A stretch of 64,000 nt of DNA from Pseudoduganella albidiflava (GTDB lineage: Bacteria > Pseudomonadota > Gammaproteobacteria > Burkholderiales > Burkholderiaceae_D). Shown piece after piece: positions 47,315 through 58,078 of this stretch. The stretch's first letter is position 1; the number at the start of each line of letters is the position of its first letter. The notes under the pieces were generated by a model that saw only the letters and a list, made by a program, of their open reading frames with translations, was not told the origin of the DNA and did no database searches. The DNA is taken from positions 5,456,001 to 5,520,000 of the forward strand of contig NZ_CP036401.1 of NCBI RefSeq assembly GCF_004322755.1. Direction: 5' to 3'. The translations under genes and the position numbers were made by a program.

Positions 47315-50104
47315 ATGATTGAGAAAGTATTGTCTCGCTCCCTGCGCGTAATGTTCGCGGGCAGCCTGGCGATGGGCATGCATGCCGCGACCGCGCAGGA
47401 AGCCGCCGAGCAGCCCATGCAGCGTATCGAAATTACCGGCTCGTCCATCAAGCGCATCGCCGCCGAAGCGTCGCTGCCGGTGCAGTCCTTCAACCAGAAG
47501 GACATCAAGAAGACCGGCGTCACCACGGTGACCGACTTCATCCAGCAGATCCCGGCAATGCAGGGCTTCACCGCGGCGGCCGCATCGGTCGGCGGCGGTG
47601 GCGGCGGCGTCACCACGGCTTCCATCCACGACATCGGCGAGCAGTACACGCTGGTGCTGCTGAACGGCCGCCGGATCGCCCCGTCCAACTCCGGCACCAC
47701 GATCGACCTGAATTCGATCCCGCTGTCGGCCGTGGAGCGCGTGGAAGTGCTGACCGACGGCGCCTCGGCGCTGTACGGTGCCGACGCCATCGCCGGCGTC
47801 GTCAACTTCATCCTGAAGAAGGGTGCGTCCGAGTGGCAGATCGATGCCAAGTACAACAACCCGGAACGCTCCGGTGGCGCATCGAACTCGGTCTCGATCT
47901 CGAAGGGCTTCGGCGACATCGACGAAGACGGCTACAGCGTGTTCTTCTCCGCCAGCCACGACGTGCAGAAGTCGCTGAAGGCTTCGCAGCGCAGCTTCGC
48001 CAACAGCGGCTTCATCAACTTCACCGATCCGGCCACCGGCAAGGCACTGCAATTCGCGACCGGCTCGAGCCGCGCGCTGCCGGCCAACGCCACGGTGCGC
48101 TACACGGCCGCCGACGGCTCGGTGAACTCGCTGAACCTGAACCCGTACGCCCTGTCGCACAACGGCGCATGCGCGCCGATGAACGCCGATATCTACGGCG
48201 ACGGCAGCTGCTACTTCGATTCCTCGTCGACCATCGAGATCAACCCGGAAACCAAGCGCGACGCCGTGTTCAGCTCGGGCGAACTGAAGCTGGGCAATAC
48301 CGGCTTCCGCGCGTTCTACGACCTGGCCTTCACGAAGGCCGGCATGCGTTCGGCGATCGCCCCGGTGCCGGCGCAGTTCTCGATCGCCCAGGGTTCGTCG
48401 CTGTACAACCGCTACATCCTGCCGTACCTGACCGCCGAGCAGGCGGCCGGCGTGACGAGCGTGAACGCGAACTACCGCCTGATGGAAATGGGCAACCGCA
48501 CGTATGACTACGGCACCAAGGCCACCCATATCGTGGCCGGCGTGGACGGCAATGCCTTCGGCTGGGACCTGAACTCCGCGTTCACCTGGTCGCGCAACCG
48601 CCAGACGCAGGATTACGTCAGCGGCTTCCCGCTGGCGAACAAGTTCAGCGCGGCGGTGGATGCCGGCCTGATCGATCCATTCAGCTACGGCCTGGGCGAG
48701 ATGCCGGCGTCGATGCGCAACACGCTGCTGGGCACCGGTGTCTCGGGCAAGAGCCAGACGCAGACCGTGATCATGAAGAGCTGGGATGCGCGCGGTTCGC
48801 GTGAAGCGTTCAAGCTGCCGGGTGGCGCGGCCATGCTGGGCGTGGGTGTCGACTACCGCGACACCAACTACCACATGGACTACGAGCCGATCTCGGAGAA
48901 CGCCGAGGTCCTCACGGAAAGCGGCGGCGTCGACAGCGGCTACCACCGCGCCAACAGCGGTGCCTATGCCGAGCTGATGATGCCATTGACGAAGGCCCTG
49001 GAAATGACCGCCTCGGCGCGTTACGACCGGATCGGCGCCGTCAAGGACAACGTCGGCGGCAAGACCTACGGCGATACCGAAAGCGCCAACACCTGGAAAG
49101 TGTCGGCCAAGTACTCGGCCACGAAGAACCTGATGTTCCGCGCCGCGGCCGGCACCGGCTTCCGTGTGGCGAACATGCAGGAAATCGCCGGCGTGCAGGA
49201 AGACTGGGGCGTCACCGAAGGCACGTACCAGTGCCCGCTGACCGGCACCGGCCATCCGCTGGCATCGTACTGCAACGGCGTCGGCCGCACGCAGTTCGAG
49301 GCATTCCGCTCGGGTAACGCGAACCTGAAGCCGGAAAAGTCGAAGCAGTGGTCGATCGGTACCGTGTGGGAACCGACCGGCAACCTGTCGCTGGCGCTGG
49401 ACCTGTGGAACGTGGAAATGCGCGACCAGGTCGACGAAGTGTCCGAATCGCTGATCTTCGCCGATCCGATGAAGTACTCGTACCTGTACACGACGAAGCA
49501 CATCAACGCCACCGGCGCCGACCAGCTGGCCGTGATCTTCGCACCGATCAACATCGGCAAGCGCGAAAACCGCGGCATCGACTACGACCTGACGCACAAG
49601 CAGAACATCTGGGGCGGCCGCCTGACCAGCCGCCTGGCCGGTACCTACTTGCTGCGCTCGCGCTTCACGGTGCCGGGCACCAGCGACGACTGGACCAGCA
49701 GCCTGAACCGCTATGGCATCGACAACAAGGTCAGCTTCCGCCACGTGATCCGCGCCTCGACGTCGTTCGAGACCAAGCAGCTCACGCACACGCTGACCGC
49801 CAGCTACCGCAACGGCTACGCCGACAAGGAATGGACCGTGGATGACTGCACCGTGATCGTCGCCGGTTCGCCGGGCGAATGCCACGCCGCCGCGCTGGAC
49901 GTGCCGAGCTACACCACCTTCGACTACCAGGTGGCTTACCGCCCGCTGTCGAACGTGGAAATCTCGGCCGGCGTGCTGAACCTGTTCGACCGCAATCCGC
50001 CGCTGTCGCTGCGTAACGCCGGTTCGCACCAGATGGGCTACAACCCTGCCTACTCCAGCGCGCTGGGCCGGCAGCTGTACCTGTCCGGTTCCTACCGGTT
50101 CTGA
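47315..50104 (+). CDS. TonB-dependent receptor 2
   Basis: 929 residues; signal peptide MIEKVLSRSLRVMFAGSLAM ending ATAQ, then MQRIEITGSSIKRIAAEASL. Plug motifs: TDFIQQIPAMQGF, TLVLLNGRRIAPSNSG, VERVEVLTDGASALYGADAI. The barrel ends with YLSGSYRF. It lacks the SLRGLG segment of receptors 1 and 3, having a Gly/Val-rich GGGGGGVTTASIHDIG instead, so it is a different subgroup. A GAAAGAAG ribosome site precedes the ATG. Substrate unknown. Terminator at 50143. Confidence 0.92.
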   Translation: MIEKVLSRSLRVMFAGSLAMGMHAATAQEAAEQPMQRIEITGSSIKRIAAEASLPVQSFNQKDIKKTGVTTVTDFIQQIPAMQGFTAAAASVGGGGGGVTTASIHDIGEQYTLVLLNGRRIAPSNSGTTIDLNSIPLSAVERVEVLTDGASALYGADAIAGVVNFILKKGASEWQIDAKYNNPERSGGASNSVSISKGFGDIDEDGYSVFFSASHDVQKSLKASQRSFANSGFINFTDPATGKALQFATGSSRALPANATVRYTAADGSVNSLNLNPYALSHNGACAPMNADIYGDGSCYFDSSSTIEINPETKRDAVFSSGELKLGNTGFRAFYDLAFTKAGMRSAIAPVPAQFSIAQGSSLYNRYILPYLTAEQAAGVTSVNANYRLMEMGNRTYDYGTKATHIVAGVDGNAFGWDLNSAFTWSRNRQTQDYVSGFPLANKFSAAVDAGLIDPFSYGLGEMPASMRNTLLGTGVSGKSQTQTVIMKSWDARGSREAFKLPGGAAMLGVGVDYRDTNYHMDYEPISENAEVLTESGGVDSGYHRANSGAYAELMMPLTKALEMTASARYDRIGAVKDNVGGKTYGDTESANTWKVSAKYSATKNLMFRAAAGTGFRVANMQEIAGVQEDWGVTEGTYQCPLTGTGHPLASYCNGVGRTQFEAFRSGNANLKPEKSKQWSIGTVWEPTGNLSLALDLWNVEMRDQVDEVSESLIFADPMKYSYLYTTKHINATGADQLAVIFAPINIGKRENRGIDYDLTHKQNIWGGRLTSRLAGTYLLRSRFTVPGTSDDWTSSLNRYGIDNKVSFRHVIRASTSFETKQLTHTLTASYRNGYADKEWTVDDCTVIVAGSPGECHAAALDVPSYTTFDYQVAYRPLSNVEISAGVLNLFDRNPPLSLRNAGSHQMGYNPAYSSALGRQLYLSGSYRF

Positions 50105-50286: not shown

Positions 50287-51345
50287 TTATTCGCCCTTCA
50301 GGCGGCGCTGGCGGACGGCGTCGGCGAGCTGGGCGAGCACTTGCTCGCTGGCTTCCCAGTCGATGCAGCCGTCGGTGACGGATTGGCCGTACGTCAGCTC
50401 CTTGCCCGGCACCAGGTCCTGGCGGCCGGCGACCAGGTGCGATTCCACCATCACGCCGACGATGCGCGTGTCGCCGCCAGCCACCTGGCCGGCGATGTCG
50501 GCGCACACGGGCACCTGGTTTTCCGGTTTCTTCGAGCTGTTGGCGTGGGAGGCGTCGATCATCAGGCGCGCGGCCAGGCCGTAGCCGGCGATGGCCTTGC
50601 TGGTTTCTTCGACGCTGGCGGCATCGTAGTTCGGCGCCTTGCCGCCGCGCAAGATGACGTGGCAATCCTCGTTGCCGCTGGTCGACACGATCGCCGAGTG
50701 GCCGCCCTTGGTGACCGACAGGAAGTGGTGCGGCTGCGAGGCGGCCTTGATCGCTTCGACGGCGATCTTGATGTTGCCATCGGTGCCGTTCTTGAAGCCC
50801 ACCGGGCACGACAGCCCCGACGCCAGCTCGCGGTGCACCTGCGATTCGGTGGTGCGGGCACCGATCGCGCCCCAGGCGATCAGGTCGGCGATGTACTGCG
50901 GACTGATCACGTCGAGGAATTCGGTACCGGCCGGCAAGCCCAGTTCGTTGATGTCGCGCAGCAGTTCGCGCGCCATGCGCAGGCCGTCGTTGATGCGGAA
51001 GCTGTTGTCCATGTACGGGTCGTTGATCATGCCCTTCCAGCCCACCGTCGTGCGCGGCTTCTCGAAATACACGCGCATCACGATTTCCAGGTCATCCTTC
51101 AACGCCTCGCGCACCTTGACCAGCCGCCGCGCATATTCCATCGCCGCCTTCGGATCGTGGATCGAGCACGGGCCGATGACGACCATCAGGCGGTCATCCT
51201 GGCCATGCAGGATGCGGTGCAGGGCCACCCGCGCGCCGGACGCCGTGGCGGATGCGGCTTCGGTACAGGGGAATTCGCGGATCAGGTGCGAGGGAGGAGT
51301 CAGTTCCTTCATCTCGCGGATGCGCAGGTCGTCGGTGCGTTGCAT
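50287..51345 (-). CDS. aroG: 3-deoxy-7-phosphoheptulonate synthase (DAHP synthase, AroG type)
   Basis: 352 residues, class I alpha-beta DAHP synthase that joins phosphoenolpyruvate and erythrose-4-phosphate in the first step of the shikimate pathway. Motifs: VVIGPCSIHDPKAAMEYA, MRVYFEKPRTTVGWKG, GLPAGTEFLDVISPQY, IGARTTESQVHRELASG, PVGFKNGTDGN, HFLSVTKGGHSAIV and IDASHANSSKKPE. AGGAGAG precedes the ATG. The gene has a promoter, a Phe-rich leader peptide and a terminator upstream (51418-51617), so its transcription is probably attenuated by phenylalanyl-tRNA supply. It lies among TonB receptors, apart from other aromatic genes. Confidence 0.97.
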   Translation of the reverse strand: MQRTDDLRIREMKELTPPSHLIREFPCTEAASATASGARVALHRILHGQDDRLMVVIGPCSIHDPKAAMEYARRLVKVREALKDDLEIVMRVYFEKPRTTVGWKGMINDPYMDNSFRINDGLRMARELLRDINELGLPAGTEFLDVISPQYIADLIAWGAIGARTTESQVHRELASGLSCPVGFKNGTDGNIKIAVEAIKAASQPHHFLSVTKGGHSAIVSTSGNEDCHVILRGGKAPNYDAASVEETSKAIAGYGLAARLMIDASHANSSKKPENQVPVCADIAGQVAGGDTRIVGVMVESHLVAGRQDLVPGKELTYGQSVTDGCIDWEASEQVLAQLADAVRQRRLKGE

Positions 51346-51417: not shown

Positions 51418-51445
51418 AAAAAAAAACCGCCATCGCTGGCGGTTT
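51418..51445 (-). terminator. Attenuator terminator upstream of aroG
   Basis: Minus strand AAACCGCCA and TGGCGGTTT form a 9-bp stem with loop GCGA, then a run of T residues (eight to nine counting the stem overlap). It lies 33 nt after the leader-peptide stop codon and 70 nt before the aroG start. Its 5' arm AACCGCC can pair instead with GGCGGTT inside the leader reading frame (51506-51500), forming an antiterminator. Confidence 0.9.
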
Positions 51446-51477
51446 CTTCGTATCTGCTGGTCTCGCTTGCTTCTCGC

Positions 51478-51561
51478 TTACGTGCACCGGCCTTTACTCA
51501 ACCGCCTTGGGGCAGGGAGCCAAAAGTAAAAAAAGCCGGTAAAGAAAACAAAGCGGTGCAT
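51478..51561 (-). CDS. Phenylalanine-rich leader peptide of the aroG attenuator
   Basis: A 27-codon frame starting with ATG 51561 and ending with TAA 51480-51478. The peptide begins MHRFVFFTGFFYFW: six Phe, one Tyr and one Trp within residues 4-14, the hallmark of aromatic-amino-acid leader peptides such as that of E. coli pheA. AAGGA lies 9 nt upstream. The antiterminator strand GGCGGTT sits at codons 19-21, just ahead of a ribosome stalled at the last Phe codon, and is covered when the ribosome reaches the stop. The peptide itself need have no function. Confidence 0.88.
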   Translation of the reverse strand: MHRFVFFTGFFYFWLPAPRRLSKGRCT

Positions 51562-51587
51562 GGGATCGAGTCCTTTGAGTGAAGTTC

Positions 51588-51617
51588 ACTATAACAACAA
51601 GCTTCGAGTTTTGGCAA
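51588..51617 (-). promoter_or_regulatory. Sigma-70 promoter of the aroG leader
   Basis: Minus strand TTGCCA (51617-51612), 18-nt spacer, TATAGT (51593-51588). The start site near 51581 leaves a 20-nt untranslated region before the leader peptide. Confidence 0.75.
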
Positions 51618-52375
51618 GGAATTGTTTGACGGAGCAGCTTGCACGCTTTCGCCAGGCGCCCTCATGGCCCAGTCATGTCATGCACCGTGCCCGCGCGTGC
51701 CTGCCGTATCGCCACCGTGGACAAAAGACGCCGGTCGACACTCGCCATCCGCCCCCCGATTGCCGGATCGCTCCATCCCGGCACACGCCGGCGCGGCCAT
51801 TCATCGCCTCGCCCGGCAGTCCGGTGACCTGCGAGATTGCGCTATCAGAATAAATGCCGCTCCGCTCGATAATGCAGGAGGCCCGGCAAATAACATTCCC
51901 CGATCGACCAAATATTGGTTTCTCGATGGTATCGATTTGATAGTCGGTGAGCCGTTCTTATTTAAGGCAGATTTAAGTCTTCTTAAGCCCGGGCATTTGG
52001 AGGAGATAGGGACCGGGCCGCCGATGGGTGATCTGGATGTTCCGGAACTGCCCTGATCATGGGCCGATTTGCCAGGAATCGCCGCGCTACGCCACATCCA
52101 TCACGCGGCATCTTACTGCAAAACAAACCAACTTCGATTAATAACAGTCTATCTTCCGCTAAAGATGGGCGTTAGCGAAAGACGTGGGCGAATCTCCCTA
52201 TATATTTCACCAGAGAATATGATTTTGATATGGGGATATACCACAGCTTATGTCAAAGCCCGTTTACCGTTGCATCTGTTGCGCACAGGAGACATCCGAG
52301 TTCCATATGACCCTTAACTCCTATATAACGTTCATTCTCACGAATACAAATGGATACATTTCCGGAGAGTTGAAG
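51618..52375. other. Intergenic region upstream of TonB receptor 3
   Basis: About 760 bp between the aroG promoter and receptor 3. From about 51840 the composition turns AT-rich. A plus-strand frame ending at 52056 encodes STKYWFLDGIDLIVGEPFLF and a further 30 plausible residues (LLKPGHLEEIGTGPP), which may be the C-terminal relic of a lost gene; no start, ribosome site or family was recognised. The last 200 bp (TATATATTTC, TATAACG) presumably carry the receptor's promoter. Confidence 0.45.
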
Positions 52376-55237
52376 ATGAAACGAATGAAAATACGCCCAA
52401 TTCCGGGTGTAGTACGGCGGGCCTTCCCCATCGCGGCACCGCTGTTGATGACGATGCTGACGGCACAGGCGCAGAACGCCCCTGCCACGACCACCGCGCA
52501 ACCGATCCAGCGCGTTGAAATCACCGGCTCGAACATTCGCCGCGCGCAGGCCGAAACGGCATCCCCGGTCCAGACCGTGAACCGCGCCGATATCGAAAAA
52601 TCGGGCAAGACCACCGTTGCCGAACTGCTGCAGACGCTGGCGGTCGACAACCAGGGCTCCGTGCCGACCACCTTCGGCAACGGCTTCGCCTCCGGCGCGT
52701 CCGGCATCTCGCTGCGTGGCCTGGGCGCCGCGTCCACGCTGGTGCTGCTGAACGGCCGCCGCATCGCGCCGTACGGCCTGGCGGACGACGGCCAGAAAGT
52801 CTTCGCCGACCTGAACATCATTCCCGCGGAAGCCGTGGAACGCGTCGAGATCCTGAAGGACGGCGCCTCCGCCATCTACGGTTCCGACGCCATCGCCGGT
52901 GTGGTCAACGTCATCCTGCGCAAGGACTACGTGGGCACCACCGTGCGCCTGTCGCAGGGCCTGTCGAACGAAAGCGACGGCGGCGACACCCGCCTGGCTG
53001 TCACGCACGGCGTGGGCGACCTGGAAACGGACCGCTACAACTTCCTGTTCTCGGCCGAATACGGCAAGAAGCGCGAAGTGTGGAACCGCGACCGTGCCGG
53101 CCGCGGCGCCGTGGGCCGCGCCGACTTGCGCGAGTTCGGTTTCTCGGCACAGGAAGCGCTGGGCGGCACCGGTGCCATCGTTGCCCGCAACAGCGCCGGC
53201 AGCTCGGTCGTTGGCAACGTGCGCAACCCGCTCACCAACGATTACTACAGCCGCGGCAACCCGGCCGGCGTGGGCTTTACCCGCACCTTCCCGGGCGCGG
53301 CCTGCTCGAACTTCACCAACCACCCGCAGGGCGATCCGGGCGGCGGCTGCCTGACCGATGCTACGCAGATGTACAACCAGATCCAGCCGCGCCAGGAAAC
53401 GCTGAACCTGTTCGGCCGCGCGACCTTCCAGCTGAACAACGACTGGCAGGCCTACGTGGAACTGAACGGCTACCACAGCGATTCGGAATCGTGGTCCACG
53501 CCATCGGGCATCAGCGGCAGCGTCGGATACCCCGGCGGCCCGGTCAACAATGCGGACGTGTCGCTGGGCGCGGATCACCCGGACAACCCGTACTTCGGCA
53601 GCCGGGCGCGCCTGCGCTACATCGCCTGGGACGTGGGCCCACGCACCAGCGCCATCGAAACGAACTTCGTGCGCGCCGTCGCCGGCCTGAAGGGCTCGGT
53701 AGCAGGCTGGGATATCGACAGCGCCCTGCTGTTCTCGCAAAGCAAGACGAATCGTGACCAGAACGGCTACCTGCAACGCGACGCGACCTTCGCCCTGCTG
53801 GACCCGAGCGCAGCAAACATCGCCGCCGCCAATGCCGGCAGCGCCGCCTACCGCGGCCTGCCAGCCGGCAGTTTCTGGCGCATCGGCGAAAACGCCGGGC
53901 TGAACTCGCAAGCCATCTACGACGCGATATCGCCGACGATCTCCAACGATGCCACCACCAGCATCGCCGTGGCCGACGTGAAAGCGTCGCGTGAATTCGG
54001 CCAGCTGCCGGGCGGCGCGATGGGCGTGGCCGTCGGCGCGGAATTCCGCCACGACGAGACCGAGCTGCAGCCGACCTCCGGCACCGAGCGCGGCAACATC
54101 ATCGGCCTGGGCTATTCGGCCTACGAAGGCCAGCGCAATTCGGCGGCACTGTACGCCGAATTCGTGGCACCGGTGCACTCCACGCTGGAACTGTCCGCCG
54201 CGCTGCGCTACGACCACTTCAACGACGTGGGCAATTCGTACACGCCGAAAGCGGGCTTCAAGTGGACGCCGGTGCGCAGCTTTGCCCTGCGCGGCACGTT
54301 CGCCCGCGGCTTCCGTGCGCCGAGCGCGGCGGAAAATGGTCGCGGCGGCCTGGCGGCGTTCTCCACGTCGGACGATCCGGTCCGCTGCGCACTGGGCGTC
54401 GCGGCAGCCTGCGCCTCGTCGTCCGTTGCCGTGATCACGTCGCCGAACCCGGACCTGTCGCCGGAAAAATCGAAGAGCTTCTCGGTTGGCGCCGTGTGGG
54501 ATCCGCTGCCGCGCACCAGCATCTCGCTGGACGCCTGGCAGATCGAGCGCAAGAACGAGATCAACCAGGAAACCACCTCGGCTGCGATTGCCGCGGGTAA
54601 CCTGGTTCGCGATCCGGGCAGCTCGCAGTTCGCCGGCGACCCAGGCGCCATCGTGGCCGTGCTGACCAACTACATCAACTCGAACTCGACCAAGGTCAAC
54701 GGTATCGACCTCGATGCGCGCACCACGTTCCAGATGGGCGACGCCGGTTCGCTGACGGCCGACATCAAGTGGACGCACATGTTCAAGTTCGAGCGTACCG
54801 ACCTGGAAGGCAACACGGTCGACTACGCCGGCACGCACGGCAACTGCGATGCGACCAACTGCATGGGCACGCCGGATAACCGCATCAACCTGGGCCTGTC
54901 CTGGGACCGTGGCCCGCTGCGCCTGTCCGGCGTGATCAACCACCGCGGCAAGTTCGACAACACGCTGTTCAAGGACGATCCGGACGGCTGCGCCTTCCAC
55001 TTCGCCAACGGCGACGATTCGCCGAATGGTTGCAAGATCAGCTCGTTCACGACGCTGGACCTGACGGCCAAGTACCGCTTTACCAGCAAGGCCGAACTGT
55101 TCGCCACGATCCAGAACGTGCTCGACAAGGAGCCGCCGCTGGATCCGCTGACCTACGGTGCCGCCGGCTACAACCCGCTGGACTACAGCGGCGCACTGGG
55201 CCGTTACTTCCAGGTGGGCATGCGCTACACGTTCTAA
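52376..55237 (+). CDS. TonB-dependent receptor 3
   Basis: 953 residues; GGAGAG 7 nt before ATG 52376. Signal peptide with an RR pair (VVRRAFPIAAPLLMTMLTAQ ending AQAQ), then IQRVEITGSNIRRAQAETAS. Plug motifs ELLQTLAVDNQGSVPTTFGN, SLRGLGAASTLVLLNGRRIA and VERVEILKDGASAIYGSDAIAG are nearly the same as in receptor 1, and the barrel also matches along its length, including YAGTHGNCDATNCMGTP near the end. The two are clearly paralogues. The barrel ends VGMRYTF. Substrate unknown. Confidence 0.92.
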   Translation: MKRMKIRPIPGVVRRAFPIAAPLLMTMLTAQAQNAPATTTAQPIQRVEITGSNIRRAQAETASPVQTVNRADIEKSGKTTVAELLQTLAVDNQGSVPTTFGNGFASGASGISLRGLGAASTLVLLNGRRIAPYGLADDGQKVFADLNIIPAEAVERVEILKDGASAIYGSDAIAGVVNVILRKDYVGTTVRLSQGLSNESDGGDTRLAVTHGVGDLETDRYNFLFSAEYGKKREVWNRDRAGRGAVGRADLREFGFSAQEALGGTGAIVARNSAGSSVVGNVRNPLTNDYYSRGNPAGVGFTRTFPGAACSNFTNHPQGDPGGGCLTDATQMYNQIQPRQETLNLFGRATFQLNNDWQAYVELNGYHSDSESWSTPSGISGSVGYPGGPVNNADVSLGADHPDNPYFGSRARLRYIAWDVGPRTSAIETNFVRAVAGLKGSVAGWDIDSALLFSQSKTNRDQNGYLQRDATFALLDPSAANIAAANAGSAAYRGLPAGSFWRIGENAGLNSQAIYDAISPTISNDATTSIAVADVKASREFGQLPGGAMGVAVGAEFRHDETELQPTSGTERGNIIGLGYSAYEGQRNSAALYAEFVAPVHSTLELSAALRYDHFNDVGNSYTPKAGFKWTPVRSFALRGTFARGFRAPSAAENGRGGLAAFSTSDDPVRCALGVAAACASSSVAVITSPNPDLSPEKSKSFSVGAVWDPLPRTSISLDAWQIERKNEINQETTSAAIAAGNLVRDPGSSQFAGDPGAIVAVLTNYINSNSTKVNGIDLDARTTFQMGDAGSLTADIKWTHMFKFERTDLEGNTVDYAGTHGNCDATNCMGTPDNRINLGLSWDRGPLRLSGVINHRGKFDNTLFKDDPDGCAFHFANGDDSPNGCKISSFTTLDLTAKYRFTSKAELFATIQNVLDKEPPLDPLTYGAAGYNPLDYSGALGRYFQVGMRYTF

Positions 55238-55405: not shown

Positions 55406-58078
55406 ATGAAGACCACCCGTCCGCGCCATCCCCGCTTCAACCTCCGCCTCGCCACCCTGCCCCTCGCCCTTGCTTCCCTTGCCACCGCTGCCGCGCCGGC
55501 TTATGCCCAGCAGGCCGAGGAAGGCCAGATGGCGCGCGTGGAAATCACCGGCTCGTCGATCAAGCGCATCCAGTCCGAAACGGCCACGCCGCTGACCGTG
55601 TTCCGGGCCGAGGAATTCGTCAAGCAGGGCCTGACGACGGCACAGGAAGTACTGGACCGGATCCCGTCGAACCAGAGCAGCTTCGGCGCGGCCAACGCGG
55701 TGGGCGGCAATGCCAGCGGCTTGCCGACGGGCGGCCAGGCCACGGCCGACCTGCGCGGGCTGGGCGGCGACAAAACGCTGGTGCTGCTCAATGGCCGCCG
55801 CCTCGCCACCCACCCGTACGACGGCGCCAGCGTGGACCTGAACCTGATCCCGGTGGCGGCGCTGGAACGCGTGGAAGTGCTGCGCGATGGCGCCTCGGCG
55901 ATCTACGGTACCGATGCGATCGGCGGCGTGATCAACTTCATCACCAAGCGCGGCGTCGACCGCGCCACCATCGCGCTGGAAGCCACCTTCCCCGAGGAGA
56001 CGGGCGGGCGCGAACGGCGCGCCAACCTGACCGCCGGCGGCGGCGACCTGGACCGCGACCGCTGGACCGTGCTGGGCGTGTTCGACTACCACAAGCAGGA
56101 CGTGATGACGTCGCAGCAGCGGCCGTTCTCGGCCACCGGCGTGATTCCCTCGCGCGGGCTGAACGAAACCTCGGGCACGCCCTTCCCGGGCAACTACTTC
56201 GATCCCGTCAGCGAAGTGGCCGGCAACCCCTATTTCGCCACCGGTTGCGACGCGCCGCTGTCCATCCCGCGCGCCAGCGACGGCACCTGCCGCCAGGACT
56301 ACACGCGCCTGATCGACAACATCCCGGAACAGGAGCACGTCACCGCGTACGGCAAGGCCAGCATGAAGGTGGGCGCCGACCATACCGCGTCCGTCGAGCT
56401 GCTGTATTCGGTCAACAACGTCATGTCGCGCACGGCGCCGCCGCCGCAGACCGGCCTGATCCTGCCGGCCAGCAGCCGCTGGTATCCGGGCAACGCGGGT
56501 GGCGTGCCGGCGCAGCCGGGGCTGTCCGGCGAACCGCTCAATGTGAGCTGGCGGCCGACCGAGGCGGGGCAGCGCCAGATCCAGTCGAAAGGCCGCGGCA
56601 CGCGCCTGGTCGGCTCGCTGGAAGGCCTCGTCGCCGGCTGGGATTACCAGGGTGGCCTGAGCTTTTCGGTCAGCCGGTCCGAGGAATTGTTCACGGGCGG
56701 GTATGTGCAGGACGCCGGCTTCGCCGCGGGTGTGCTGAACGGTATCCTGAACCCGTTCGGCCTGCAGGATGAAGCGGGCCGCGCCTATCTGGCCACCACG
56801 GCGCTGCGCGGCCGTGTGCAGGATGCCAAGAACCAGCAGACGGCCTTCGACTTCAAGGCCAGCCGCGAACTGTTCGACATGGCCGGCGGCAAGTTCGCCG
56901 TGGCGCTGGGCACCGAACTGCGCCACGAGAAAGCCGACTTCAACGTGAACCGCGACATCGCCGGCCAGGCCGCCAGCTCGGGTCTGTCGGGCTCGCTGTC
57001 GAAGGATGGCAGCCGCACCATCCAGGCTGTGTTCGGCGAAGTCGTCGCGCCGTTCATGAAGAACCTGGAAGCGTCGCTGGCCGCCCGCTACGACCACTAC
57101 AGCGATGCCGGCAGCACATGGAATCCCAAGGCCTCGCTGCGCTTCCAGCCGCACCAGGCGCTGGTGCTGCGCGGCTCGGCCAGTACCGGGTTCCGGGCAC
57201 CCACGCTGTTCGAGAAGAACGCCCCGCTGTCGCGCAACGATACCAGCAACAGCTATGACGATCCGATCCTGTGCCCGGGCGGCGTGCCGCAGCCGGGCGC
57301 CAATCCGCTGCGCGACTGCGACCTGCAGCAGTTCAAGCTGCAAGGCGGCAATCCCGACCTGAAACCGGAAAAGTCGCGCACCTTCTCGGTCGGCGCCGTG
57401 TTCGAGCCGGTGCCCGCCCTCACGCTGGCGGTCGACTACTGGGACATCCACCTGCGCGACAAGATCGGTGCGCTGCCGGAACAGACCATCTTCGGCAACT
57501 TCGACCGGTACCGCGACCGCTTCCTGCGCTTCCCGGACGGCTCGCCGAACGCGATCCTGGACTTGAACGAAAACCTGGGGAAAGTGGAAACCGACGGTAT
57601 CGACGTGAGCCTGACGGCGCGCACGCCGAACCAGAGCTGGGGCGGCCTGTCGTTCACGCTGGACGGCACCTGGGTGCACAGCTACCAGTACCAGAACGAG
57701 CGCGACGGCGAATTCATCGAGAACGTGGGCCGTTATGCGGACAACTACGTGGTGTTCCGCTGGCGGCACAACATGGCCGTGACCTGGCGCTCCGGCCCGT
57801 GGAGCGCCACCGTCGCCCACAACTTCAAGACGCGCTACGACGACCAGAACCTGGTCGATCCGGAGTTCGTCAACCGGGTGTCGTCGTACAGCCTGGTGAA
57901 CCTGTCGGGCACGTACACGGGCTTCAAGGACATCACGCTGACGGCCGGCGTGAAGAACCTGTTCGACAAGGACCCGCCATTCTCGAACCAGGGCACGGTG
58001 TTCCAGAAGGGCTACGACCCGCGCTATACGGACCCGATCGGGCGGGCGCTGTATCTGCGGGGTTCGTACACGTTCTGA
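55406..58078 (+). CDS. TonB-dependent receptor 4
   Basis: 890 residues; signal peptide ending APAYAQ, then MARVEITGSSIKRIQSETAT. Plug motifs EVLDRIPSNQSSFGAANAVG, ADLRGLGGDKTLVLLNGRRL and VERVEVLRDGASAIYGTDAIGG; the barrel ends YLRGSYTF. The interior differs from receptors 1 and 3, and it lacks the cysteine-bearing THGNCD loop, so a different substrate is likely. A GAGGAAG ribosome site lies about 9 nt upstream. Transcription ends at the bidirectional terminator at 58238, beyond a GGGGTCAG repeat copy. Confidence 0.92.
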   Translation: MKTTRPRHPRFNLRLATLPLALASLATAAAPAYAQQAEEGQMARVEITGSSIKRIQSETATPLTVFRAEEFVKQGLTTAQEVLDRIPSNQSSFGAANAVGGNASGLPTGGQATADLRGLGGDKTLVLLNGRRLATHPYDGASVDLNLIPVAALERVEVLRDGASAIYGTDAIGGVINFITKRGVDRATIALEATFPEETGGRERRANLTAGGGDLDRDRWTVLGVFDYHKQDVMTSQQRPFSATGVIPSRGLNETSGTPFPGNYFDPVSEVAGNPYFATGCDAPLSIPRASDGTCRQDYTRLIDNIPEQEHVTAYGKASMKVGADHTASVELLYSVNNVMSRTAPPPQTGLILPASSRWYPGNAGGVPAQPGLSGEPLNVSWRPTEAGQRQIQSKGRGTRLVGSLEGLVAGWDYQGGLSFSVSRSEELFTGGYVQDAGFAAGVLNGILNPFGLQDEAGRAYLATTALRGRVQDAKNQQTAFDFKASRELFDMAGGKFAVALGTELRHEKADFNVNRDIAGQAASSGLSGSLSKDGSRTIQAVFGEVVAPFMKNLEASLAARYDHYSDAGSTWNPKASLRFQPHQALVLRGSASTGFRAPTLFEKNAPLSRNDTSNSYDDPILCPGGVPQPGANPLRDCDLQQFKLQGGNPDLKPEKSRTFSVGAVFEPVPALTLAVDYWDIHLRDKIGALPEQTIFGNFDRYRDRFLRFPDGSPNAILDLNENLGKVETDGIDVSLTARTPNQSWGGLSFTLDGTWVHSYQYQNERDGEFIENVGRYADNYVVFRWRHNMAVTWRSGPWSATVAHNFKTRYDDQNLVDPEFVNRVSSYSLVNLSGTYTGFKDITLTAGVKNLFDKDPPFSNQGTVFQKGYDPRYTDPIGRALYLRGSYTF

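Follow-up and report, generated by a model that had tools for sequence, protein, structure and literature searches.

Textbook control of Escherichia coli aroG is exerted by TyrR, a DNA-binding repressor. The locus described here, in which a promoter, a short reading frame crowded with aromatic codons and a terminator precede aroG, raises the question of whether the decision at the first step of the shikimate pathway can be made instead by a translating ribosome, as it appears to be. The stretch analyzed (the window) comprises 64,000 nt of Pseudoduganella albidiflava (assembly GCF_004322755.1, contig NZ_CP036401.1, positions 5,456,001-5,520,000 of the forward strand), whose genome is G000 in our sample of the genus and family. 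An initial annotation of this DNA had proposed a phenylalanine attenuator. According to the analyses presented below, the element is very probably a ribosome-mediated transcription attenuator of aroG, which on the best reading would sense phenylalanine and tyrosine, perhaps also tryptophan. The case rests on the parts of the element, their conservation, their co-variation and the geometry of a folding model, from which we infer translation, stalling, termination and the response to amino acids.

Organization of the aroG Leader Region

On the minus strand, the promoter is followed by the leader ORF, the terminator and aroG, in that order (Table 1). The product of the last gene is AroG, as the initial annotation had it, with a score of 598 bits against a cut-off of 568 for the NCBIfam equivalog model. 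The remaining parts listed there were found as well: the promoter, a 27-residue leader with six Phe, one Tyr and one Trp in the eleven codons of residues 4-14, a terminator with stem and T-run that is conserved in the family, and a 7-nt alternative pairing, the GGCGGTT of the leader frame being the exact complement of AACCGCC in the terminator 5' arm. Transcription probably starts near 51581.

Table 1. Features of the aroG leader region and their positions in the window.
Feature	Position	Strand	Basis
Sigma-70-type promoter, TTGCCA-18-TATAGT	51588..51617	-	Sequence match and conservation in relatives
AAAGGA, likely ribosome-binding site of the leader	51571..51576	-	Read from the sequence; putative function
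Leader ORF, 27 codons, MHRFVFFTGFFYFWLPAPRRLSKGRCT	51478..51561	-	ORF list, conservation, coding signature in relatives
Regulatory codons F4 to W14 (6 Phe, 1 Tyr, 1 Trp)	51520..51552	-	Model-permissive A-site positions
Segment 2, GGCGGTT, antiterminator 5' core	51500..51506	-	Complementarity; kept in three reading frames in relatives
Segment 3, AACCGCC, common to antiterminator and terminator	51438..51444	-	Complementarity, alignment, co-variation
Intrinsic terminator (segments 3 and 4, then T-run)	51418..51445	-	Sequence, folding, family alignment
aroG, class I 3-deoxy-7-phosphoheptulonate synthase	50287..51345	-	NF006723 above cut-off

A single promoter match was counted, which equals the expectation from shuffled sequence (mean 0.7); the TATAGT hexamer is retained in all 70 genus rows and TTGCCA in 123 of 143 family rows. 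Between the terminator and aroG, where the initial annotation would have taken a transcription start site as refutation, no good promoter was found in the window (best match 6 of 12); of the 49 relatives with enough space there for the comparison, 2 have a match of at least 9. The folded leader has a z-score of -2.77. A search of the whole window with Rfam at gathering scores returned no match to any curated leader family, and the element thus defines, within that search, an RNA outside any Rfam family. A simple terminator scan did not list the leader terminator, probably owing to the way its stem continues into the T-run. The gene itself is flanked by TonB-dependent receptor genes (plus-strand ORFs 47315-50104, 52250-55237 and 55406-58078), all three of which match the Pfam receptor barrel and plug domains.

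Conservation in the Genus and Family

The window's aroG was found in 73 of 74 genomes of the genus, with only a paralogue in G054, and an aromatic-rich leader was present in 69 of the 70 upstream regions examined, starting 159 to 219 nt upstream of the last base of that codon with which aroG begins and commonly of the type M..FFFTGYFYFSNSNPKAVE. At the family level, a close AroG was detected in 123 of 145 genomes; outside the genus, 77 of the 82 upstream regions read pass the leader screen, and leader and terminator together were parsed in 144 of 153 regions of the family, genus included. Six of the nine unparsed regions show the same layout by eye, below the thresholds (G115 weakly); the other three are G056, which is truncated ahead of the aromatic codons, and the pair G082 and G086, which are without an attenuator. 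In these last two an apparent other coding sequence extends close to aroG, and Undibacterium sp. TS12 (L293) is likewise without an attenuator. In the draft contig G056:C21, upstream of 25369, the leader is replaced at AAGGCGGTGGAGTAG by the apparent end of another coding sequence, with segment 2 and the terminator still present, which looks like either an assembly join or a real rearrangement. As the initial annotation had supposed, the kinship is with Oxalobacteraceae: by AroG the nearest named relatives are Rugamonas rubra and other members of this family, at 89 to 90% (best 80 of 588 loci), in a search that may leave out records very near the window.

Codons and RNA in the Leader

Over all pairs of 140 family leaders, the aromatic core shows 7793 synonymous against 5095 non-synonymous single-base codon differences in frame, compared with 2975 against 16867 and 4538 against 16044 in the other two frames. 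GGCGG is retained whichever of the three frames reads it (124, 15 and 5 leaders), and its distance to the stop codon ranges from 5 to 38 nt across the family without the RNA segment ever being lost. Given the synonymous bias in the core and the persistence of GGCGG while the frame changes, the leader looks preserved at the codon level in its first half and at the RNA level in its second. The frame that reads segment 2 has shifted repeatedly, with three frames in one genus. The stop codon follows GGCGG by 5 nt in 70 of the 144 family regions and by 21 nt in the window, whose clade reads the segment as PRRLSKGRCT where many relatives read PKAVE and then stop; in this clade the stop codon is displaced downstream by a frameshift.

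With respect to amino acid content, the family leaders contain on average 5.0 Phe, 2.1 Tyr and 0.3 Trp, with Tyr in 144 of 144 and Trp in 42, and those of three other families 4.8 Phe, 2.0 Tyr and 0.6 Trp, with Tyr in 71 of 73 and Trp in 37, in leaders that were selected for aromatic content and not for Tyr. Since every family leader carries a Tyr codon, the annotated phenylalanine attenuator stands as an attenuator but probably not as one of phenylalanine alone; the codons suggest a Phe/Tyr(/Trp) switch, whose main signals are expected to be Phe and Tyr, with Trp as a variable third.

Pairing Evidence for the Antiterminator and Terminator

Five of the six pairs of the core antiterminator are invariant in 32 sequences and are therefore uninformative on co-variation, and the terminator helix has 99% paired cells in 32 sequences, with two-sided changes at two pairs (3 cells). 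With the core left out, the 22 nt after GGCGG paired with the 30 nt before CCGCC at -12.0 within a genome against -9.8 (sd 0.28) between genera (75 loci, one per genus); none of 20000 permutations was as good, nor any of 20000 permuted within families. By family, the same test gave 0 of 20000 (p 0.00) for the window's family and p values of 0.20, 0.08 and 0.05 for the others, after 9 of the 77 loci outside the window's family had been excluded because a GGYGG core, a parsed terminator or a leader was missing. The 3' part of the leader against the terminator 5' arm scored -16.3 against -15.1 (sd 0.15), with 0 of 10000 permutations as good, also when stratified; this comparison comprised 133 loci in nine groups (thinned to a single locus per genus for the window's family and the named orders, and to one per genome for the remainder; 3 of 254 loci dropped) and, like the flank test, removes shared ancestry only in part. 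A protector pairing 1:2 is predicted by folding, its flanks showing no co-variation, and the protector hairpin was rejected as a co-varying element, being unsupported by the flank test.

The antiterminator is longer than the 7-nt pairing, which forms its core: in stalled-ribosome structures of 8 family and 12 other members, the core helix is extended by more blocks in several, as in G170 (GGAGA with TTTCT, CGGT with ACCG). In another family, GGGAA follows CTGGTGG and TTCCC precedes CCGCCAG. The initial annotation had looked to conservation of leader and stems in close relatives, with compensatory changes in both stems, for support. Conservation extends far beyond close relatives, and compensatory changes were found in the flanks and the terminator, not in the near-invariant core.

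Ribosome Position and the Folding Model

In a nascent-RNA model, in which the RNA ends just before segment 4 and a stalled ribosome occludes all RNA up to the last aromatic codon, the mean probability of the 2:3 pairing over 143 leaders was 0.09 in free RNA, 0.94 with the ribosome stalled and 0.14 with the ribosome at the stop codon; the stalled value exceeded the free one in 139 leaders and the one at the stop in 136. For the window the corresponding values were 0.00001, 0.9995 and 0.10. These results agree with the earlier proposal that a stall on the aromatic codons frees GGCGGTT. A codon-by-codon scan of the ribosome footprint over 98 of the 144 leaders (genus rows thinned) placed the permissive A-site range at about -45 to -15 from GGCGG (footprint-only means 0.70 to 0.78, and 0.72 to 0.78 from -42 to -15). 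The aromatic codons cluster between -42 and -15: at -30 to -21 they account for 82 to 100% of all codons, and at -12 to +9, where the mean 2:3 probability is at most 0.03, for 0 to 8%; at +24 to +33 the pairing returns (0.33 to 0.61) among the 7 to 30 leaders that are that long. By a looser measure, the window gave 0.77 to 0.82 on F4 to W14, 0.17 free and 0.59 at its displaced stop codon, and E. coli pheL, taken as a control, 0.84 on six of its seven Phe codons against 0.12 in free RNA and 0.13 with the ribosome at the stop.

In this model, codon placement lets a stalled ribosome free the antiterminator, and three other features of an attenuator are present: an aromatic leader ORF, a terminator before the gene and, from the model and co-variation, an antiterminator that uses the terminator 5' arm. 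With the full terminator, the antiterminator of the window has a probability of 0.000 at equilibrium even when the ribosome is stalled; since the terminator always wins at equilibrium once segment 4 is present, the switch must be kinetic. One detail of the initial annotation has to be given up for the window, namely that a ribosome at the stop codon covers GGCGGTT: from 51480-51478 it fails to reach the segment at 51506-51500, which lies at least 20 nt upstream, and the proposal is a better fit to the commonest form of the leader, with its shorter distance to the stop.

We hypothesize that the leader is translated behind RNA polymerase after a start near the position given above. When charged tRNA-Phe and tRNA-Tyr are ample, the ribosome would clear the aromatic codons; with segment 2 then hidden, either under a ribosome or by pairing with leader RNA further upstream, segments 3 and 4 would form the terminator ahead of aroG. 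A shortage of Phe or Tyr (perhaps Trp) would stall the ribosome on F4 to W14, where it would cover the upstream partner, so that segment 2, left free, could pair with segment 3 while segment 4 is still to be transcribed, and the polymerase would continue into aroG. In the window's clade, ribosome release and RNA refolding would replace the block by a terminating ribosome, because of the displacement of its stop codon.

Distribution beyond the Family

Of 26 loci read outside the family in an order-wide sample, 9 combine the leader with a CCGCC..GGCGG terminator; this is a minimum, as two families that showed no attenuator in that sample later yielded positive members. In three other families the leader is present at 26 of 29, 22 of 29 and 25 of 28 loci, denominators that include 2, 5 and 2 loci with too little flank. 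There, a strict perfect-stem rule found hairpins for only 27, 17 and 12; over the pooled leader loci, a looser stem pattern found a terminator in 251 of 254. Among named AroG loci nearest the window (best 80 of 588), 43 of 80 pass the leader and terminator screen: Burkholderiales 24 of 26, Lysobacterales 7 of 7, Hyphomicrobiales 9 of 12, unplaced Betaproteobacteria 1 of 4 and unclassified records 2 of 4. In the same 80, neither Enterobacterales (0 of 10), Rhodocyclales (0 of 5) and Neisseriales (0 of 2) nor any of ten further loci of other groups pass it. Examples of leaders are MNANRSFYFWYYGFPMPLAEEGVRSP in Xanthomonas and MITVATSYFWYFSYDSSLAAGGSRSI in Bradyrhizobium, and Cupriavidus lacunae also has one. 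Among the members of the three large orders concerned are bacteria of soil, associates of plants and symbionts.

A covariance model of the family element matched 43 of 250 order genomes, with one match each, a lower bound since known positives such as G221 were missed; at least one of its seven family matches, the window's own, was in the training set. In 41 of the 43 the match lies before aroG (22 by coordinates and 19 of 21 read), and the other two are plain terminators elsewhere. Mapped on the AroG tree, the presence of the attenuator requires 9 changes; shuffled labels required 27 on average and in none of 500 shuffles so few, so that the attenuator follows the gene; the deep forks of this tree are weakly supported and no number of origins is claimed. 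In Devosia, Bradyrhizobium, Mesorhizobium and a Rhizobium tropici record (L304, L306, L308, L315, L316, L317, L329, L332 and L346), the attenuator precedes an AroG 67-69% identical to the window's, and these attenuator-bearing AroGs sit beside the Xanthomonas group in the tree. Transfer of gene and switch together is possible for these loci. A broader reading, which we offer tentatively and rate as rather less than probable, is that a single ancestral module, tied to one AroG clade and integrating Phe, Tyr and Trp supply at the entry to the shikimate pathway, substitutes for TyrR control in Burkholderiales, Lysobacterales and Rhizobiales and moved with aroG between orders. An assignment of group g144 to Ralstonia is at most tentative: its 16S is 96.5% identical to that of Cupriavidus, with no Ralstonia among 25 of 528 records listed. 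Plasmid records with aroG likewise included no Ralstonia among 40 of 425 listed.

Alternative Explanations

Short ORFs are common, 95 of at least 20 residues overlapping the 8 kb around the leader, and one might suppose that a chance ORF stands here beside a terminator belonging to the upstream gene. Nevertheless, only one ORF in the whole window that is between 12 and 45 residues long reaches 7 F/Y/W in 12, namely the leader, which is followed by a terminator, and 60 random sequences of the same length (first-order Markov) held none; together with conservation across three orders, which already refutes it, this makes coincidence practically negligible.

The coding signature of this hydrophobic aromatic peptide would also suit a small membrane protein with a function and a terminator of its own, aroG being expressed by leftover read-through. 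That is very improbable, since the C-terminus varies in frame and length, the leader and terminator sides co-vary, and nearly all covariance-model matches precede aroG, as described above. Somewhat less remote, though still improbable, is an arrest peptide, whose nascent chain would sense free Phe or another ligand and whose stall would drive the RNA switch; TnaC is an arrest peptide that stalls in response to Trp. Residues beside the aromatics are indeed conserved in the genus (TG, NSNPKAVE) and similar across the family (SYSSP.AVEKR), but they differ in other families (PLADREG, PLAEEG, CRRDESGARS), and even within the genus the frame that reads the C-terminal part varies. Moreover, Phe lowers expression in Ralstonia mutants (PMC6379268), the direction expected of attenuation by tRNA charging.

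Relation to Known Systems

Attenuation by a translating ribosome remains our preferred reading, and its closest classical likeness is pheL-pheA of E. coli, which has a Phe-rich leader, a terminator and an antiterminator, and in the same model a similar antiterminator profile against ribosome position. Unlike the element described here, pheL lacks a Tyr codon, its stem sequences are different by eye, and it acts on the Phe branch rather than on the step at the head of the common pathway. The kind of attenuator is thus classical, and attenuation before DAHP synthase or shikimate genes has already been proposed in other lineages (PMC8632094; PMC6429828). In Acholeplasma, the uORFC-13-1 motif ahead of aroF, represented by 24 sequences from this genus and from environmental DNA, is likewise described as a candidate Phe-codon uORF near a terminator before a DAHP synthase gene, but with at least one Phe codon and in an unrelated lineage (PMC8632094). 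Shikimate genes are also preceded by two candidate uORFs that carry F and Y codons and share with our element the Phe/Tyr-codon leader, and the study's five genomes are given as including HIMB5, T. lienii, B. cicadellinicola, C. novyi and Arcobacter (PMC6429828, Fig. 6b legend). As far as our searches show, what is new is the aroG element, its mix of Phe and Tyr, and its spread over three orders. To our knowledge, none of the genomes of the study of those two uORFs belongs to Burkholderiales, Lysobacterales or Hyphomicrobiales.

A literature search of the titles and abstract openings listed, with subscription papers and supplementary tables outside its scope, found no leader-peptide attenuator of aroG for these orders, and an earlier listing is quite possible. 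Vitreschak and others reportedly surveyed proteobacterial attenuators in 2004. In addition, a database of predicted attenuators is cited in PMC1173090, and the supplementary material of PMC5688073 reportedly includes a short 5'UTR list.

TyrR control of E. coli aroG resembles the proposed switch in that it concerns the same gene and that aromatic amino acids lower DAHP synthase expression (PMC5343134). The upstream region of E. coli aroG has no such leader. A search of the window's genome for the TyrR-type HTH (TIGR04381) found none, with E. coli positive as control. In the approximately 900 nt upstream of the prephenate dehydratase domain, part of which is probably pheA itself, no ORF reaches 4 F/Y/W in 12.

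Physiological data come from Ralstonia solanacearum, in which aroG1- and aroG2-lacZ fusions rose 10- to 20-fold when the other gene was deleted and 1 mM Phe lowered the derepressed fusions 2- to 3-fold (702 to 316 and 1072 to 353 Miller units), with a small effect in the wild type (47 to 40 units) (PMC6379268). The stems "attenuat" and "leader" are absent from the main text of that article. By analogy, these data would be consistent with what an attenuator predicts, in a genus whose leader is not among the loci read, and the element offers a possible mechanism for this published, mechanistically unexplained repression by Phe. It might also serve as a natural Phe/Tyr sensor for the engineering of aromatic production.

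A second AroG, 54% identical to the window's, is encoded in the same genome (G000:C1:626477-627508, L002). Upstream of it there is no comparable leader: only overlapping starts of one ORF reach 4 F/Y/W in 12, with no run of Phe. Both aroG copies of Ralstonia respond to Phe (PMC6379268), whereas only one of the two copies here has the leader. Two AroG matches were found in 72 of the 74 genus genomes, and one AroG copy may escape attenuator control.
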